The notes beneath the pieces are model-generated. The model worked only from the letters and a program-made list of their open reading frames with translations. It did not search any database and was not told the origin of the DNA. Shown piece by piece: positions 6,749-21,891 of a DNA stretch of 64,000 nt. The position numbers were made by a program, and so were the translations under genes. Within the stretch, counting starts at the first letter, position 1; each line of letters starts with the position of its first letter. The stretch comes from Medicago truncatula (Eukaryota; Streptophyta; Magnoliopsida; Fabales; Fabaceae): contig NC_053047.1 in the NCBI RefSeq assembly GCF_003473485.1, positions 32,722,972-32,786,971 of the forward strand, read 5' to 3'.

Positions 6749-8422
6749 ATGTCATTTTCAACTTTGAGATCTGTTCTTTTCTCTGTTTTCATACCCAATT
6801 TTTCACATTTTCAACAATCTCCAAACCCTAATTTCATTGGTTTATTCCCCTCTTCAATAAGCCTCTATTCACAATTACATCACCACCAAGATGAAGAAAA
6901 CAATCTCATTTCATCATTCAACAGCTTACTCCATCACAAGAATCCTACCCCACCCATCATCCAATTTAACAAGATTTTATCTTCCCTTGTAAAAGCTAAG
7001 CATCACTCCACTGCTCTTTCACTTCATCAACAAATGGAATTAAATGGAATTGTGTCAGATTTCTTCACTTTCAACATCCTCATCAATTGCTTTTCTCAAT
7101 TGGGTCTAAACTCTCTTTCTTTTTCTGTTTTCGGCAAGATTCTTAAAAAGGGTTTTGACCCAAATGCCATAACATTCAATACACTCATCAAGGGTCTCTG
7201 TCTCAAAGGTCACATCCATCAAGCATTGAACTTTCATGATAAGGTGGTAGCACAGGGATTTCATTTGGACCAAGTTAGCTATGGGACCTTGATTAACGGA
7301 TTATGTAAAGTTGGACGAATAACAGCTGCTCTCCAATTGCTGAAACGAGTTGATGGGAAATTAGTTCAGCCTAATGCGGTAATGTACAACATGATTATTG
7401 ATAATATGTGCAAAGCTAAGCTTGTTAATGATGCTTTTGATTTATATTCTCAAATGGTTGCTAAGAGAATTTCTCCTGATGATTTCACTTGTAATAGTTT
7501 AATTTATGGCTTCTGCATTATGGGTCAATTGAAAGAGGCAGTTGGTTTGTTACACAAAATGATATTAGAAAACATCAACCCTCGTATGTATACATTTAGC
7601 ATATTGGTTGATGCTTTTTGTAAGGAAGGAAAGGTGAAAGAAGCTAAAATGATGTTAGGTGTGACGATGAAAAAAGACATTATACTTGATGTTGTTACTT
7701 ATAACTCTTTAATGGATGGATATTGCTTAGTTAAAGAAATTAACAAGGCCAAAGATATATTCGATAGTATGGCCTCAAGGGGAGTCATTGCTAATGTTCA
7801 GAGCTATACCACCATGATTAATGGATTATGTAAGATTAAAATGGTGGATGAAGCTGTAAATCTCTTTGAAGAAATGCGTTGTAGAAAAATTATTCCTAAT
7901 GTGGTAACTTACAATTCCCTTATTGATGGTTTGGGTAAATTGGGGAAAATCTCTTGTGTGTTGAAGCTAGTCGATGAGATGCATGATAGAGGTCAACCAC
8001 CTAATATAATAACTTACAATTCTATATTGGATGCTTTATGCAAAAACCATCATGTTGACAAGGCAATTGCATTATTAACAAATTTGAAAGACCAGGGTAT
8101 TCGACCAGATATGTACACATACACTGTTCTTATCAAGGGATTGTGCCAAAGTGGAAAACTGGAGGATGCACAAAAAGTTTTTGAAGATCTTTTGGTCAAA
8201 GGCTATAATCTAGATGTCTATACATATACCGTTATGATCCAAGGGTTTTGTGTCAAGGGCTTGTTTGATGCAGCGTTGGCCTTGCTGTCAAAAATGGAAG
8301 ACAATGGATGCATTCCAAATGCTAAAACTTATGAAATAGTTATCCTTTCTCTGTTCGAAAAAGATGAAAATGATATGGCAGAGAAACTTCTTCGTGAAAT
8401 GATTGCAAGAGGTCTACTGTAA
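6749..8422 (+). CDS. P-class PPR protein, Rf-like, intact (557 aa)
   Basis: A single-exon gene with a clean ATG and a TAA stop. The first ~40 residues (MSFSTLRSVLFSVF...) are Ser/Arg-rich and hydrophobic without acidic residues, as in a mitochondrial presequence. From about residue 65 the protein is a run of roughly 13 tandem 35-residue PPR motifs with the repeated pattern TYNSLIDGLCK...G...EA...L...M...G..P. No E, DYW or SMR domain follows; it ends in MIARGLL. This layout is that of the restorer-of-fertility-like clade, whose members bind and process specific mitochondrial RNAs (family knowledge). The RNA target cannot be read here. A broken paralogue with the same C-terminal end lies at 15869-17448 in the opposite orientation. 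Confidence 0.95.
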   Translation: MSFSTLRSVLFSVFIPNFSHFQQSPNPNFIGLFPSSISLYSQLHHHQDEENNLISSFNSLLHHKNPTPPIIQFNKILSSLVKAKHHSTALSLHQQMELNGIVSDFFTFNILINCFSQLGLNSLSFSVFGKILKKGFDPNAITFNTLIKGLCLKGHIHQALNFHDKVVAQGFHLDQVSYGTLINGLCKVGRITAALQLLKRVDGKLVQPNAVMYNMIIDNMCKAKLVNDAFDLYSQMVAKRISPDDFTCNSLIYGFCIMGQLKEAVGLLHKMILENINPRMYTFSILVDAFCKEGKVKEAKMMLGVTMKKDIILDVVTYNSLMDGYCLVKEINKAKDIFDSMASRGVIANVQSYTTMINGLCKIKMVDEAVNLFEEMRCRKIIPNVVTYNSLIDGLGKLGKISCVLKLVDEMHDRGQPPNIITYNSILDALCKNHHVDKAIALLTNLKDQGIRPDMYTYTVLIKGLCQSGKLEDAQKVFEDLLVKGYNLDVYTYTVMIQGFCVKGLFDAALALLSKMEDNGCIPNAKTYEIVILSLFEKDENDMAEKLLREMIARGLL

Positions 8423-9046
8423 GACTGAAACTAGGTGAGATGATTATGTTAGACATTGTTATTTTGAACTGATATTTCTTTTGTTAAATTTGTTTATACT
8501 TCAAAAACAAATTTTATTAACGATCGCGAGAGGTCTATTGCATTTCATTTTTGTAGTTGCCTCTCCTAATTAGAAACAAATTATATTATTGATGTTTCTT
8601 TTGTTATGTTTGTTTAAACTTCAAAAACCGAGAAATCAGTGAGTTTCAACCTGAGGGGAAGTTGAAGAATTAGAATGTAATAGTTAGCATTGTCTTCGAA
8701 ATATTGGTTGTGTTAGGATTTTACAAGTTGTACTACACTTGCTATAGCCAATTTCTTATTCTCAATAGCTAATATATAGAACAGATTATAAAAAAGGTCT
8801 AAAAGCAAGACTCGTAATAGTTAAGGGAAAGAGAGAGTTAAAGAAGAAGAACGTTGTAAATACAATTTTCGTTTTTAGTTTTTGGAGTTGGAATCTCATC
8901 GCCATTGACTCTGCTGGATTTACAATTTCTCTTTCTCAGTCAGCAGCATGGTTGGACTACATGTTTATATGCACATCATTTTGATTCATAGTTTAAAAGT
9001 GTGTTGAAGAAGAAGTAAAAGTGTGTTGAAGAAGTTGTAAATATAA
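8423..9046. other. PPR 3' flank, no gene seen
   Basis: Downstream of the PPR stop. A short segment at 8526-8545 repeats the end of the PPR coding region (gcgagaggtctattg), suggesting a small local duplication of the gene's 3' end. Otherwise AT-rich. Confidence 0.4.
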
Positions 9047-15285: not shown

Positions 15286-15868
15286 TTAGGCTTCCGGAGG
15301 ATTCTTTTTTGTGTAATGGTGAGAAGGATGGTATGTATTCAGTTCGCTCAGTTTATCATCAATTAGGAATTCTAGCAAATTGATCTCCCAAACAGAGTTA
15401 AAAACTTTGTTTGGAGGTTGGCGTAAAATATCCTCCCCACTCAAGGTAACCTGTGTAAAAAAGTAGAGAAACTTGAATCTGTTTGCCCTTTTTGCTTCGC
15501 TGAGGTAGAAACATCCAAACACTTATTAATGGAGTGTAATGTTGCAAAGCTAACTTGGTTTTCATCTAGCCTTGGGCTCCATGATCCTCAAAACTCTTCT
15601 TTGAACTGTGGAAATTGTGGTTTTATAGGAACCTACTTCTGTTCAAGCAACTAAATAAAAACATATCACTCACTGTTTTGTTAAGACATTAGTATGCACC
15701 TTAAAACATATTACTGTACCAAAAACTAATTTAGTATTTAGCCTGTTGCATAGTCCAATTTACTTTTTACGTGACAGACTAACAATAAAAGGAAATAAAG
15801 ATTGGATGGTTGTATTGAAATTGGAAATACCAAATTGTAACTAAAAAGCATCTCACCTTGTTTTATTC

Positions 15869-17448
15869 TTATAGTAGACCTCTAGCAATCATTTCACGAA
15901 GAAGTTCCACTGCCTTATCATTCATGTCGTTTTCAAACAAAGCACGGATAAGAATTTCGAAAGTTACAGGATTAGGGGTGCAACCATTGTCTTCCATTTT
16001 TGACAGTAAGGACAATGCTTTATCGAACAAGCTCTCTTAACAAAGGCCATTAATCAGAACAGTATACATCCTCACGTCTAAATGATAGCCTTTAATCAAA
16101 AGAATCTGATAAACCTCTTGCGCGTCCTTGAGTCTTCCATTTTTGCATAAACCATCAACAAGTATTGTGTATGTATATATATCCGGCTGAATTCCTTGGT
16201 CTTTGATCTTCGTAAGTAATGTGATTGCCTTGTCAACCTGATGGTTTTTGCACAAAGCATCCAATAAGGAATTGTAAGTGATCACATCAGCAGGTTGGCC
16301 TCTATTATGCATCTCATTTACAAGATCCCAAGCATCAAAGATTCTCCCAGATTTGTGAAGACCATCGATAAGTGAACTGTATGTTACAGTATTAGGAGCC
16401 ATACTTTTGGAATGCATTTCTTTGAGGAGATTAACGGCTTCATCCACCATTTTAGTCTTACATAGTCCATTAATCATGACACTATAGCTATGAACATCAG
16501 GAGTCACTCCCCTTCTAGCCATAGTGTTGAACACAAATGTGGCCTTATTCTCTTGTTTGACCAAGAAATACCCATCCATCAAAGAATTATAAGTAATGAC
16601 ATCAGGATCCACACTTTGTTTTATCATAACAGCTAACACATTTCTAGCTTTTTTCATCTCTCCTTCCTTACATAAACCATCAACCAATATATTAAATGTA
16701 TAAATGTCTGGTTTAATGTTTTTCAACAACATTTGATTGAACAAACCAACTGCTTCTTTCAATCGACCCACAATCAAACAGCCATACATTAAAGTATTGT
16801 AAGTGATGACATCAGGAGAAATTCTCTTGAGAAGCATTTGAGAATATAAATCAAAAGCATCAATTACAAGTTTATCCTTGCATAAACTATAAATAATTGT
16901 ACTGTACATGACCACATTAGGCTGAACCAACAGCCCATCAATATTTCTAAGAACCTGCATGGCAGCTCTTGTTTCTCCTGCTTTGCATAACCCATCAATC
17001 AAGGTCCCATAACTAACTTGATTAAGTTGAAACCCCTTTGCTATAACATCATCATGAAAGTGAAGGGTTTCCTTAACTTTGTCATTAAGACAGACCTTTG
17101 ATAAGTGTATTGATTGTTACAATATCAGGGTGAAAACCAAGCTTGACCGAGGTGGCAGAAACAATTAACCAATATATTGAGATTAACAAGATCAGTTTGA
17201 ATTCCTCTGAGTTCCATTTGATGAGAAAGGGAAATAACAGTGTGGAAATGATTGATTTTAACAAGGGATGCGAAGATCTTACCAAATTCAAATATGGTTG
17301 GGGTAGGGTTGTTCATATTGAGCATTCGATTGAATTGTGAAACAGCTTCATCAACATTAGGAACGAACGAAGGAAGAGGGTGCGATTGAAAGTGAAATAA
17401 ACGACGAAAGAGAAGTAAATTGGGAGTGGAAACAGAGAAGAGAGAGAA
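15869..17448 (-). pseudogene. Rf-like PPR pseudogene, main body
   Basis: Reading right to left, this is a second P-class PPR gene closely related to 6749-8422 (shared blocks such as VSYGTLI.GLCK, ITYNSLLDALCKNH, and the same IARGLL end at 15869). At least three lesions are visible. A deletion near 17140 (after CFCHLG) removes about ten codons of the LNFSVFAKIL-type segment and shifts the frame. A 2-bp deletion near 17088 turns GLCLND into GLS-stop. An in-frame TAA at 16037-16039 is followed by 55 more codons of good PPR sequence. In addition, a mariner element inserted at 17449 separates the body from its start codon (see 21396-21419). Otherwise about 12 PPR motifs are well kept, so decay is recent. 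It is the host's own gene, not a transposon. Confidence 0.9.
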
Positions 17449-17482
17449 CACCCTCCGGTCTTATATATAAGCAAAAAAAACA
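17449..17482 (+). repeat. Left terminal inverted repeat of mariner element
   Basis: Starts CACCCTCCGGTCTTATATA and runs into an A-rich tract. It is the inverted partner of 21360-21393. Confidence 0.9.
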
Positions 17483-17903
17483 GCTTTTACGGTGATTAAG
17501 AAATGCAGTTAAGTGTAGTTGATTTTCTAAATTTTGTATAAAACATAAGTTAAATTGACTATATTGCCCTTTTCTTAAAATTAATGTACACCAACATGAT
17601 TGTACAACTGCATTAGAGAAATTTAATACTGTACCTCACGTTGAAATACCTTCTGGTTTCCCACCTCACGTTGAAAATATGCAAGACATTGGAAACATCA
17701 ATTCAATTATATGCAAGGCATTTCAGCTTCTTAACACCAAATATTTGGTGTGCCGCCAAAATTTTCATTTGAATGAATGAAACTACAATTTTCATTCCAT
17801 GTCAAATTTCAAAAGTTTTTTTGGGATGATTCATTTTCCTTATCATGTTCCTATAAATAGCTATGAACATTTACACTATCACCATCTATGAGTGTTCTTC
17901 AAT

Positions 17904-20011
17904 ATGGATTTTGATATTGACTTGAACGAACCTTATAATGATGCCGACGGAATCGCCGATGAAAACAGAGATGTATTACCCATCGACTTAAATGTGCAGC
18001 CTTACGATGAAGATTACATTTTCGACTTGAATGTTGTCCCGTCACTTGAAGATGATTGTGTAAATGATGCTGAAAATGTCACTGGTGGAAATGAAGCTGA
18101 TGATATATTTAGAGGTAAATTAGTTAGTTTCATTGAAGCTGAGGAATCTATAATGTAGTATAATCAAATGAGTTTTCTTTTTCTTACTTTATTTTTTATA
18201 ACTTTTTGTTTCAGGGACCCAAGATGATACAAATGGTGAAGATGAAGACATGGGTGACTTATTTAGTGAAGAAGATGAAGATATGGGTTATACATTAAAT
18301 GAAGGTGAGACAGCTAATTCAAACTATTACACACCATTGTTTGAGATATTATCATTGCTTGCTGTATTATCATTGCTTGGTGTATGTAATTTTATTGGAA
18401 CTTTTCATTAACCAAAGATATTATCAAGCATGCATTTTCTTAATAAATATGGTTAATTTCGTAAAACTAGCATGTAGAAAGAAACCTTAAACGGCTGTTA
18501 ATTCGAAACAGAGTATGTATAAGAGAGTTGATGCAGTAATTTTTTGGGAGGCAATGAAGAGAGATATACAAAATTTTGTTGCAAACTGTGACCACAATGT
18601 TTTAATTTTAAAACATTGTTTTTTTCTTACGTTTCTGTATTTTTTCTTCTTGTATATAATAACAATAAGAACTTCTTTTTTTAATCATGTAGAGGCAATT
18701 ATCGTTGAGGAAATTGAACAATCTAATAACAAACGTTCTTTTCTCGACAACAATCAACGGAAACTTGTTTCTCATTTATTGTTAAATTCAAGTTATAATG
18801 GAAAACTTTGTCGTGGGATTGTCAGAACATTGGCATCTTATTTTTCAGTCTCTCAAGATGTCATTTATCGGATTTGGAGGCAAGTAAAAAAAACGGGTGA
18901 TCCGTGTCATAAGAAATCAAAAAATTGTGGTCGAAAAAGGATCCAAATAGATTTCGACAAAATGCGCAATGCTTCATTAGCTAAGCGTAGCACTCTTCGA
19001 TCTTTACAAACTGTCTTGGGGCTTAAAACCAAGACAACTTTGCTGAAGTACATAAAAGAAGGGGTCTTACGCCGACATTCGAATGTGCTCAAACCATATT
19101 TGAATGATAATAATTTGAAAGCTCGTATTGAATTCTGCTTGGATATGCTTGAGGAGAGTAGCATACCACATGATCAAGTGTTTAAGCCTATGTATAATGT
19201 TGTTCACATTGATGAAAAATGGTTCTATATAACGAAAAAGTCATCAAACTATTACCTTCTTGCTGATGAGGATGAGCCACATCGTATGTGTAGGAACAAA
19301 AATTACATCGGTAAGGTCATGTTTTTAGTTGTTGTGGCTAGGCCAAGATTTGATGGTGATGGTAATGAGACCTTCTCAGGAAAAATTGGTTGCTTTCCAA
19401 TAGTTCACAAGGTACCAGCACAAAGGTCTAGCATCAATAGACCTGCCGGGACACTTGAAACAAAACCAATCACTTCTATAAATAGAGAAGTCACTCGAAA
19501 GATGTATATCGACGAAGTTTTACCGGCAATCAAAGAAAAATGGCCACGAGAATATGCACATGAAACAATTTACATTCAACAAGATAATGCACCTTGTCAT
19601 GTGCCTCTAGATGATGAAGAGTTTTGTAGAGCGGCTTGCGATGGGGGATTCGACATTCGTTTGACTTTTCAACCTCCTAATTCTCCCGATTTGAACGTAT
19701 TAGATTTAGGCTTTTTTTCTGCCATTCAATCCTTGCAGCAACAGGAAGTAACTAATTCGGTTGATGCACTTATTGAAGCTGTGGAGAAATCTTTTGATGC
19801 TTTTTCCGCCCAAAGTTCGAACAACATTTTTCTCACACTTCAATCTTGTATGATTGAGATAATGAAGGCGAAAGGATCCAACAACTACAAAATTCCTCAC
19901 ATGGAGAAAGAGATGTTGCTTAGGAGAGGCATGTTACCCACACAACTAAAATGTGACCCGGAATTATTTCAAGAAACTTTTGACTACTTGTATAATGTTG
20001 AGGAGATATGA
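17904..20011 (+). CDS. Mariner-like transposase, DD39D type (539 aa)
   Basis: Three exons join in frame: 17904-18114, 18215-18304 and 18693-20011 (1620 bp, 539 aa), with GT-AG introns and a TAG acceptor for exon 3. The N-terminal ~120 residues are acidic and hold IDLNEP, IDLNVQP and FDLNVVP. Exon 3 opens with two helix-turn-helix modules (NNQRKLVSHLL... and the LASYFSVSQDVIYRIW helix, then GLKTKTTLLKYIKEG), which bind the terminal repeats. The catalytic core has HIDEKWFY (first Asp), QQDNAPCH (second Asp) and NSPDLNVLDLGFF (third Asp), with 39 residues between the last two, the plant signature. The enzyme cuts and pastes the element at TA sites in the nucleus. A short upstream ATG at 17888, out of frame, overlaps the start. 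No stop or frameshift is seen. Confidence 0.93.
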
Positions 20012-20516
20012 GGGCAGAAACTTAAACTCTTAAGTACTTGTATTTCATGATTTCTTTTGGTTTACTTGTATAATGTTGAGGAAACTTTTTTATTTCAAGA
20101 AATTTTTCAGTATTTTTAGTGTGCCTACTGAATAATTATTGTTTCTTTATTTACATAAAGATAAAATAACATGGCAGCTTTAGAGGGAAGATAATTTATT
20201 TAAGGCTACACGTAATGCCACACGTAATGCCACTAACATAAGAAAATCCACTTTTTTATGTTCCATGTTAGATTCACACAATTCATTTCAATTTATCTTG
20301 CCACACGTAGTGCAATGCATGCAAACAAATGAACGCAGACGTGAAAGTTGAGGAATTATAAGTAAAAGAAAGAAAATAAAATATTATAATCGGGACAAAT
20401 ACAATTTTATAAAGAGATGTGTAGTTTCATTATGAAAGAAGGATTAACCAAAGATAACAGGTTACAAAAAAAACTCATTCCAATACCCAAAAACATCAAC
20501 TCTTTCTATGTCACAC

Positions 20517-21077
20517 CTAGTTCAATGAATCTATGTATATTTTCAGCACATCTTCAATCCCTTTCCTCAACTCTTCATTATTCAACTCCTCAATCTCAAG
20601 TCCATTCTCCAACTCTTCATCCTTCAACTCCTCAATCTCATCTCCAGAGTCCATTGTTTCTACTGGAACTTCATTCAGATCAAAGTTTTCCATGTTTAAG
20701 TTCAGAAAAGCTCTCTCACATGGTTGGACGAATTTTTGACGCAGATTTTTCACTCTTCCAGATTGCATTACCTCTGGAACTTCACCACAAACACTCATAG
20801 AAGACCCATCTTCATTAGGGGCTTTGTTCAAGTCAAAATTGTTCTTGTACTGCCCTCCAAATGCTAGATCTTCAAACACCCATGTTTGCTTTGTTGTGAC
20901 CTCATCATCACTTTTTGACATCACTTCACCTTCAAACAAAGTATCTTGAATTAGGTTGGTATCTCCATCCCCATCAAGTGAGTCTTCAACAACAAGAAGA
21001 GAAATATCTTCCAAGTTGCTGTCAATGCCCAAATCAAATGAGGGTACTTCATCAAACCATTTTTGTGGGGATGCCAT
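20517..21077 (-). CDS. Second mariner-encoded open frame, DLNxxP-bearing acidic protein (186 aa)
   Basis: An ATG at 21077 opens a 186-codon frame wholly inside the mariner element, facing the transposase tail to tail (505 bp between stops). It begins MASPQKWFDEVPSFDLG, is strongly acidic, and contains FDLNKAP and FDLNEVP. A basic patch, GRVKNLRQKFVQPCERAF, lies between them, and the last 45 residues are a Glu/Leu-rich, probably coiled-coil tail. It matches no enzyme I recognise. The DLNxxP spacing is the EAR repression motif that binds TOPLESS-type corepressors, and the transposase N-terminus has the same motif. The frame could be open by chance or be part of a spliced gene, but its position and shared motif favour a real element gene. 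Its leader holds a 54-bp tandem duplication (21091-21164). Confidence 0.6.
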   Translation of the reverse strand: MASPQKWFDEVPSFDLGIDSNLEDISLLVVEDSLDGDGDTNLIQDTLFEGEVMSKSDDEVTTKQTWVFEDLAFGGQYKNNFDLNKAPNEDGSSMSVCGEVPEVMQSGRVKNLRQKFVQPCERAFLNLNMENFDLNEVPVETMDSGDEIEELKDEELENGLEIEELNNEELRKGIEDVLKIYIDSLN

Positions 21078-21359
21078 TTTTTTTTTTGAGTTGAAAAGAA
21101 GAAGATGTATGGGTGGTAGAAGACCGTAAAATGAGTTTTTATAATTGAAAAGAAGAAGATGTATTGGGTACACCAAGAGTTATGAAAAGCTGTTATGAAG
21201 AATTGAAATGAATGCATTATGGAGAATTGAATTGAAATGTATTGGTGTACGTGTATTCCAATAGGTGATTGAAAACCACAAAAGACTTTAAAGGGGTATA
21301 TTAGGAATAACAGTGTAAAAAGTGGTTAGTTTTGCTTATATTTGAGACCAAAGATTGAT

Positions 21360-21393
21360 GTTTTTTTTTGCTTATATATGTGACCGGAGGGTG
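21360..21393 (-). repeat. Right terminal inverted repeat of mariner element
   Basis: On the minus strand it starts CACCCTCCGGTCACATATA; the flanking TA follows at 21394-21395. Confidence 0.9.
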
Positions 21394-21395
21394 TA

Positions 21396-21419
21396 CCTTT
21401 TTGACATGAAGAATGACAT
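21396..21419 (-). pseudogene. First eight codons of the PPR pseudogene, cut off by the mariner
   Basis: Read leftwards from an ATG at 21419, this gives MSFFMSKR and runs directly to the mariner's right end. The main PPR body resumes at 17446 with FSLFSVSTPN in the same frame once one TA/TT target copy is kept. The intact paralogue starts MSFSTLRSVLFSVFIPN, which matches in both spacing and style. This is therefore the lost start of the gene at 15869-17448. Confidence 0.8.
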
Positions 21420-21449
21420 TGTGAGTAATGAATTCAATTGATATTTTGA

Positions 21450-21891
21450 GGATAAATTACCTTTTTGTCCTCTAACTATTTAATTGGTATCGGATTAGTC
21501 CTCTAACTAAAAATTGATTTATTTCGGTCCTCTAACTTTCACACCGTTACTGCATTTAGTCATTTCTGTTAGTTTTATTCAAATAAACGTTAGGGTTTGT
21601 GTTATGTGGGTCCTCTAACTTTATTTATTAGTATCATTTTGGTCCTATTTCTTGTTAAGGTATTATGATTAAATAGTGACTGATATTATTGGTAACTGTT
21701 CATTGTATGTGTGAAACAGAAGGTCAGGTACCCACATAACACAAACCCTAACGTTTATTTGAATAAAACTAATAGAAAAGACTAAATGTAATAACAGTGA
21801 GAAACTTAAAGAATGGAAATAAATCAATTTTTAGTTAGAGGACCAATTAATACCAACTAAATAGTTAGAGGACCAAAAAGATAATTAAGCC
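21450..21891. mobile_element. Mutator-type palindromic MITE
   Basis: A 442-bp element. Its left end (GGATAAATTACCTTTTTG, then TCCTCTAACTATTTAATTGG) is complementary to its right end (CCAACTAAATAGTTAGAGG, then ACCAAAAAGATAATTAAGCC). A second pair of arms (the AAACGTTAGGGTTTGTG block, in reverse at 21737-21754) lies further in. The flanks ATATTTTGA (21441-21449) and ATATTTTCGA (21892-21901) look like a 9-bp duplication with one extra base. It is non-coding. It lies only 30 bp outside the displaced PPR start codon, so it sits in what was that gene's promoter or 5' leader. Confidence 0.8.

Follow-up and report, generated by a model that had tools for sequence, protein, structure and literature searches.

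Does a plant mariner-like element carry a conserved second gene, and do the products of both genes bear the motif through which plant repressors bind TOPLESS corepressors? These questions are raised by a 64,000-nucleotide stretch of the Medicago truncatula genome (contig NC_053047.1, positions 32,722,972 to 32,786,971 of the forward strand; hereafter the window), in which a 3,945-bp mariner-like element extends over positions 17449..21393 on the plus strand, exactly as delimited in a preliminary description made from the letters alone. On the 3' side of its transposase gene, and convergent with it, lies a minus-strand frame of 186 amino acids (aa), here called open reading frame 2 (ORF2). By its sequence, ORF2 is a conserved protein-coding gene in many mariner families of this genome, and it is under purifying selection where this is measurable. 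That the element is a two-gene variant of the plant mariners, with an accessory protein that would dock on TOPLESS, is a reading to which we give an even chance. The features concerned are the following.

17449..21393, plus strand: the mariner-like element as a whole (3,945 bp), inserted close to the start of a pentatricopeptide repeat (PPR)-type gene
17449..17480, plus strand: left terminal inverted repeat (TIR), CACCCTCCGGTC..., 94% over 33 nt
17904..18114, plus strand: transposase exon 1, acidic N-terminus with DLN motifs, inferred splice
17919..17933, plus strand: DLNEP motif in exon 1
17985..18002, plus strand: DLNVQP motif in exon 1
18024..18041, plus strand: DLNVVP motif in exon 1
18215..18304, plus strand: transposase exon 2, inferred
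18693..20011, plus strand: transposase exon 3, with DUF7769, helix-turn-helix (HTH) and DDE_3 catalytic core, DD39D by eye
20517..21077, minus strand: ORF2, convergent accessory gene, 186 aa, acidic, isoelectric point (pI) about 4
20529..20600, minus strand: predicted C-terminal helix of ORF2, ...GIEDVLKIYIDS, residues 160-183, low model confidence
20664..20681, minus strand: DLNEVP motif of ORF2, nearly invariant across families
20817..20834, minus strand: DLNKAP motif of ORF2
21362..21393, minus strand: right TIR, with TA at 21394-21395 and AA at the left flank

The element resembles the plant mariners Soymar1, Osmar and Ppmar, with which it was compared by description only, in its TA target, its ends, its DUF7769 transposase and its DD39D spacing, and differs from them in its conserved convergent second gene. 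The left end opens with CACCCTCC at 17449 and the right end closes with GGAGGGTG at 21393; both are of the C[AT]CCCTCC kind, and the two TIRs are complementary at 94% over 33 nt. TA stands on both sides of 12 of the 13 elements in which two ends were recognised. The window copy is flanked by TA on the right and AA on the left, and its flanks, joined without the element, give the start of an open PPR-type frame (MSFFMSKRYSLFSVSTPNLLLF...) with a single TA at the junction. These joined flanks place the element in a PPR-type gene, which it interrupts near the gene start, and the left copy of the target duplication has probably mutated since insertion. Three inferred exons join in frame to encode one transposase with an acidic N-terminus; it matches Pfam DUF7769 above the cut-off (1.2e-12), and HTH_Tnp_Tc3_2 and DDE_3 below theirs. 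Counted by eye from the D of QDN to the D of VLD, the spacing from the second to the third D is 39, and such DD39D spacing is reported as a feature of plant mariner elements in the part of PMC4054914 that treats it. Rice and other grass mariners usually encode a single transposase, unlike Harbinger and CACTA elements, according to a passage of PMC4423477; the present element departs from this rule, which the word "usually" keeps from being a strict criterion.

The second gene recurs beside transposases throughout the window's own assembly (430 Mb, 42 contigs), which was the genome searched. The 83 transposase matches among those listed were grouped into 57 places. The window ORF2 as query gave 38 genome matches at E up to 10, and one ORF2 each from families B, C, E, F, D, H, I and K, as well as one K-family transposase piece, served as further queries. 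Transposase matches span at least 900 bp at 41 places, and at 35 of these they are accompanied by a convergent ORF2 match, in 33 cases within 0.9 kb; the match at C2:10181419 lies 3.6 kb away, and that at C3:33946792 is weak (E 0.12, and 0.50 with the K query), so that without the latter the count is 34 of 41. Before the last two relatives were added as queries it had been 30 of 41. C1:36960680 and C8:29521601, which at first gave E up to 0.93, reached 5e-67 and 1e-67 with the K query, and at C8:47050228 reading of the predicted position showed an ORF2 with one in-frame stop. Among the 166 ORF2 matches entered in this count, none was found in another orientation within 6 kb of these larger places. 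Together with the purifying selection reported below, the 34 places bear out the earlier suggestion of a conserved second gene in a mariner-like element.

By eye, the ORF2 proteins fall into eleven families: A (window), B (L027), C (L033), D (L052), E (L039), F (L056), G (L057), H (L062), I (L068), J (L066/L067) and K (L042). Eight of them (A, B, C, E, F, I, J and K) have members beside a transposase match, with identity to the window's transposase down to 52%. In family D a DLN-rich exon stands opposite ORF2, but there is no transposase match, and none was found beside families G and H. Homology led from the window to families A to D, from E to G, from F to H and from H to J; I and K were found by reading the predicted place, and E and F were picked by a six-frame pattern (DLN..P / PSF[DS]LG), so that the motif in these last two is not independent evidence.

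Selection was measured between the window copy (A1) and A2. Their ORF2 frames have 20.5 synonymous and 25.5 non-synonymous differences in 186 codons, giving a synonymous divergence (dS) of 0.21, a non-synonymous divergence (dN) of 0.059 and a dN/dS of 0.28 (Fisher p 0.0001); for codons 1-139 the ratio is 0.24 (p=3e-5), and for transposase exon 3 it is 0.20. Neither a ratio near 1 nor stops throughout the frame in relatives, either of which the preliminary description had named as speaking against a second gene, was found. In the other five frames over ORF2, 4 to 32 codons bear stops and the ratios are 0.51 to 1.23; the real frame is the only open one. Within ORF2, 46 of 558 sites differ, as against 27% and 33% in the flanking non-coding stretches, which are thus three to four times more diverged; the approximate intron 2 differs at 48%. 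On these three grounds (the ratio, the stops in other frames and the divergence of the flanks), a chance frame was rejected. A decayed third copy, with stops in both genes, gave an ORF2 ratio of 1.29 against the window and of 0.39 to 0.42 against A2. Comparisons among families A, B and C were left out, dS being saturated or nearly so.

The convergent arrangement might also suggest that the minus strand matters as antisense or convergent RNA regulating the transposase, the frame being incidental. This is extremely unlikely: the codon frame is constrained and the adjoining DNA is not, and divergent families keep the protein motifs. An antisense role alone was rejected because the constraint falls on the codon frame.

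Nor does ORF2 look like a passenger, that is, a captured host fragment or functionless frame, an explanation that we regard as largely refuted and very improbable. It would draw on the 30 of 65 ORF2 place entries (some of which repeat a place) that have no adjoining transposase match. Yet five such transposase-less places (L048-L052) show at least one element end, and L050 and L051, which show both, are internally deleted elements. Purifying selection and the consistent position and orientation in many families also speak against a passenger, as do the young copies of family B: nine copies show 0 to 7 substitutions against the reference copy over about 2.1 kb, one with a further 30 gap columns and one with a further two, and ORF2 is open in eight of the nine. 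Two full-length B copies, of 3,712 bp, show 12 differences. The passenger explanation was rejected on the intact young B copies and the consistent convergent position.

Some shortened elements keep ORF2. At L051:3266-4777 a 1.5-kb TA-flanked element retains the DLN-rich N-terminal exon and ORF2, with no transposase match; L052 and L053/L067 resemble it, and internal deletions would yield such elements without selection. Dozens of short genomic places, many with stops, match the beginning of the H-family ORF2 (about residues 3-53), which suggests that a high-copy non-autonomous family carries the 5' part of ORF2.

The ORF2 protein itself offers little to recognise. No match above the cut-offs or with a meaningful E-value was obtained against Pfam and PDB sequences. 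The pI ranges from 4.05 to 4.66 in the seven proteins computed. An AlphaFold2 model from a 10-sequence alignment has a mean pLDDT (predicted local distance difference test score) of 51.8, with one long low-confidence helix at 160-183, and ORF2 is probably mostly disordered, although low scores also come from a shallow alignment. Common to the proteins are a VED motif, which is often repeated, one or two (F/L)DLN motifs, commonly of the form (F/L)DLN(K/E)xP, acidic stretches and a C-terminal part (for example LKIYIDS, IYLDRFY or IYLPKFY). VED is present in 10 of the 11 families, the family F fragment having VEK, and families A-D additionally share PSF(D/S)LGI near the ORF2 start. The alignment columns of DLN, P and VED rank with the most conserved. 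The invariance of DLNxxP in a first alignment was partly due to motif-based choice; in a second, F and J were left out, E was kept and I was used only after its in-frame stop. In the A2 copies (L012:1501-2184, L013 and L014) an acidic repeat close to the C-terminus of ORF2, EELENGLEIEEL-like, is expanded, and their ORF2 is 228-242 aa long, compared with 186 in the window.

Both window proteins carry two DLNxxP motifs, as had been claimed: DLNVQP and DLNVVP, plus DLNEP, in the transposase N-terminus, and DLNKAP and DLNEVP in ORF2. In residue shuffles of the N-terminal exon, and likewise of the 186-aa ORF2 protein, at least two DLNxxP arose in 0 of 20,000. DLNxxP is present in the ORF2 of nine of the 11 families, or of seven of nine when the motif-picked E and F are left out. 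Among related transposases the picture is divided. DLN occurs one to seven times in the N-terminal exons of six families (A, B, D, F, J and K), five of which have exact DLNxxP, but this count is biased, since the exons of D, F, J and K (not those of A and B) were recognised by the motif pattern itself, and no transposase match accompanies the exons of D and J. Twelve loci outside family A were taken without regard to the motif, and in four of them (B, F, K and L054, where it is IDLNIP) a DLN is plausibly placed, at most 1.4 kb upstream of the transposase match. Thus the motif expected in related transposases is found in these families and is less general than in ORF2, and on this evidence it appears better conserved in ORF2 than in the transposase. 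In family B (L007) the transposase N-terminus is built of four to five repeat units of about 22 residues, and DLN motifs stand in four of these, as if the number of DLN motifs were being amplified.

DLNxP and DLNxxP belong to the known repressor motifs of plants, and DLN represses actively in assays, as stated in the relevant part of PMC6479872; they are forms of the ERF-associated amphiphilic repression (EAR) motif, a TOPLESS ligand, to whose consensus the two DLNxxP of each window protein conform. Passages of PMC8126959 report that fungal effectors with DLNxxP co-precipitate the TOPLESS protein TPL, among them Sr10312 (DLNEIP) and MGG_15391 (DLNKAP), and that mutation of the Sr10312 motif weakened binding; in the authors' proposal, such effectors interfere with the plant's own regulators that carry DLNxxP. 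A table there gives DLNELP for UMAG_01236, which from its length of 641 we take to be Jsi1. The DLNKAP of the window ORF2 is identical to the MGG_15391 hexapeptide, and the DLNEIP of the family B ORF2 to that of Sr10312. Because identical hexapeptides occur in TPL-binding effectors, TOPLESS docking is the most economical inference, and the corepressor reading is plausible.

By analogy with these effectors, both proteins would dock through DLNxxP on TOPLESS/TPR corepressors, presumably at the second WD40 domain, the site published for DLNxxP effectors. Both genes start at most about 460 bp from a TIR, ORF2 about 320 bp inside the right end of the element. Transposases of this superfamily bind element ends, so that they could carry a corepressor to both promoters; in this way the transposase would recruit it to the two ends, close to the starts of both genes, and the element would be damped. 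The most likely role of ORF2 would be that of a soluble competitor or bridge on TOPLESS, relieving repression of the element or of host genes. Since it has no known DNA-binding domain, our guess leans towards a derepressing decoy rather than an added repressor. A plant mariner lineage with a dedicated TOPLESS-decoy gene, in which the plant's main corepressor would be titrated or redirected through DLNxxP and the elements would escape transcriptional silencing, is a tentative and rather doubtful extension of this guess.

The same TIR-proximal starts, and the active repression by DLN in the assays cited in part of PMC6479872, would also fit two repressors, with TOPLESS brought to both promoters so as to hold the element at a low activity tolerable to the host, with no derepression. 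We consider such self-dampening unlikely: without a recognisable DNA-binding domain the targeting of ORF2 is hard to explain, and the comparable helper protein VANC counteracts silencing, as far as the parts of the VANC papers cited below describe it.

Several observations count against the reading as a two-gene mariner with a TOPLESS-docking accessory protein. Translated searches, among the best candidates listed, gave no ORF2 at six of the 41 larger transposase places (C1:18126741, C3:3885368, C7:43773625, C7:52503646, C8:8663207 and C8:11218054), and all ORF2 families come from one genome. The leader between the left TIR and the exon 1 start codon differs by only 16.5% between A1 and A2; transposase exon 1 alone has a dN/dS of 0.70 (p=0.28), with no significant constraint; and the ORF2 ratio between B and the internally deleted copy B2 is 0.73. 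The ORF2 of family G (four copies, L057-L060) has HIEKFP and no DLN, that of family K has DLNKFA, with no P, and the family B transposase has DLNxP and DLNIS forms in place of DLNxxP. Upstream of the transposase, eight of the 12 unselected loci, most of them partial or decayed, show no convincing DLN: seven have none, and L043 has one among stops that looks like chance; L040 (family C) and L039 (family E) are among the DLN-less. Finally, weakened binding on mutation is not stated for the DLNKAP effector MGG_15391 in the passage of PMC8126959 concerned.

In an alternative, ORF2 is a real conserved accessory gene whose DLNxxP serves the element or another host partner: ORF2 and the transposase might, for example, bind a shared non-TOPLESS ligand or one another, so as to build or regulate the transposition complex. 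Both window proteins carry the motif, the VED motif and C-terminal helix of ORF2 are about as conserved as DLN, and the DLN-less family G keeps VED, its best copy (L057) also keeping the C-terminal part. Against this stand the identity of DLNKAP and DLNEIP to published TOPLESS ligands and the standing of DLNxP and DLNxxP as plant repressor forms, and we hold the alternative to be somewhat unlikely.

Several known systems come close to the element, compared here by description. Like maize MuDR (mudrA transposase plus mudrB), it has two genes, one functionally obscure; MuDR has TIR promoters whose transcription may converge, as a part of PMC3276141 relates, and it differs in superfamily and in that mudrB is found in Zea alone, ORF2 being spread over many families of one genome. 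VANC of the VANDAL elements is likewise an accessory protein of a DNA transposon, acting on host silencing according to portions of PMC10398659 and PMC5735166; such an action is a proposal for ORF2, which carries EAR motifs and no recognisable DNA-binding domain, whereas VANC is sequence-specific for its own elements. The TOPLESS-binding effectors Jsi1, Sr10312 and MGG_15391, and HaRxL21, are also foreign proteins with EAR motifs, the DLNKAP and DLNEIP being identical (PMC8126959, in part); they are secreted by fungal and oomycete pathogens and their binding has been demonstrated, whereas ORF2 is resident in the nuclear genome and a candidate ligand. Among the titles and abstract openings covered, outside subscription papers and Repbase, no description of a second mariner gene or of an EAR-motif transposon protein was found; a rice DLN survey counted non-transposon proteins, in the part of PMC6479872 concerned, and the EAR review PMC9956375 is without the words transposon, transposase and transposable. 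The novelty of a conserved second mariner gene is therefore provisional.

The element interrupts the PPR-type gene between 17125-17451 and 21394-21440 on the minus strand. The piece adjoining the element (17128-17451) has only a Pfam PPR match below the cut-off (4.6e-5), and the neighbouring frame 16040-17002 holds PPR repeats (PPR_2, 1.6e-110). By eye the frames suggest a further frame change near 17140, so the gene looks dead even apart from the insertion. The stretches 7230-8445 and 15846-17061 form an inverted pair, 76-77% alike over about 1.2 kb, the second with PPR repeats. A long hairpin at 21453-21887, 60 bp to the right of the element, has arms of 38 and 118 nt (84% and 90% complementary) and is perhaps another insertion like a miniature inverted-repeat transposable element (MITE).

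Plant mariner elements are related to the very abundant Stowaway MITEs. The conserved second gene is a missing part to look for when plant mariner activity is reconstituted. If the TOPLESS reading is true, the TOPLESS corepressor hub would be the point at which a transposon controls its host, as it is for several pathogens, and the decoy, if real, would be the transposon counterpart of the pathogen effectors that target TOPLESS.

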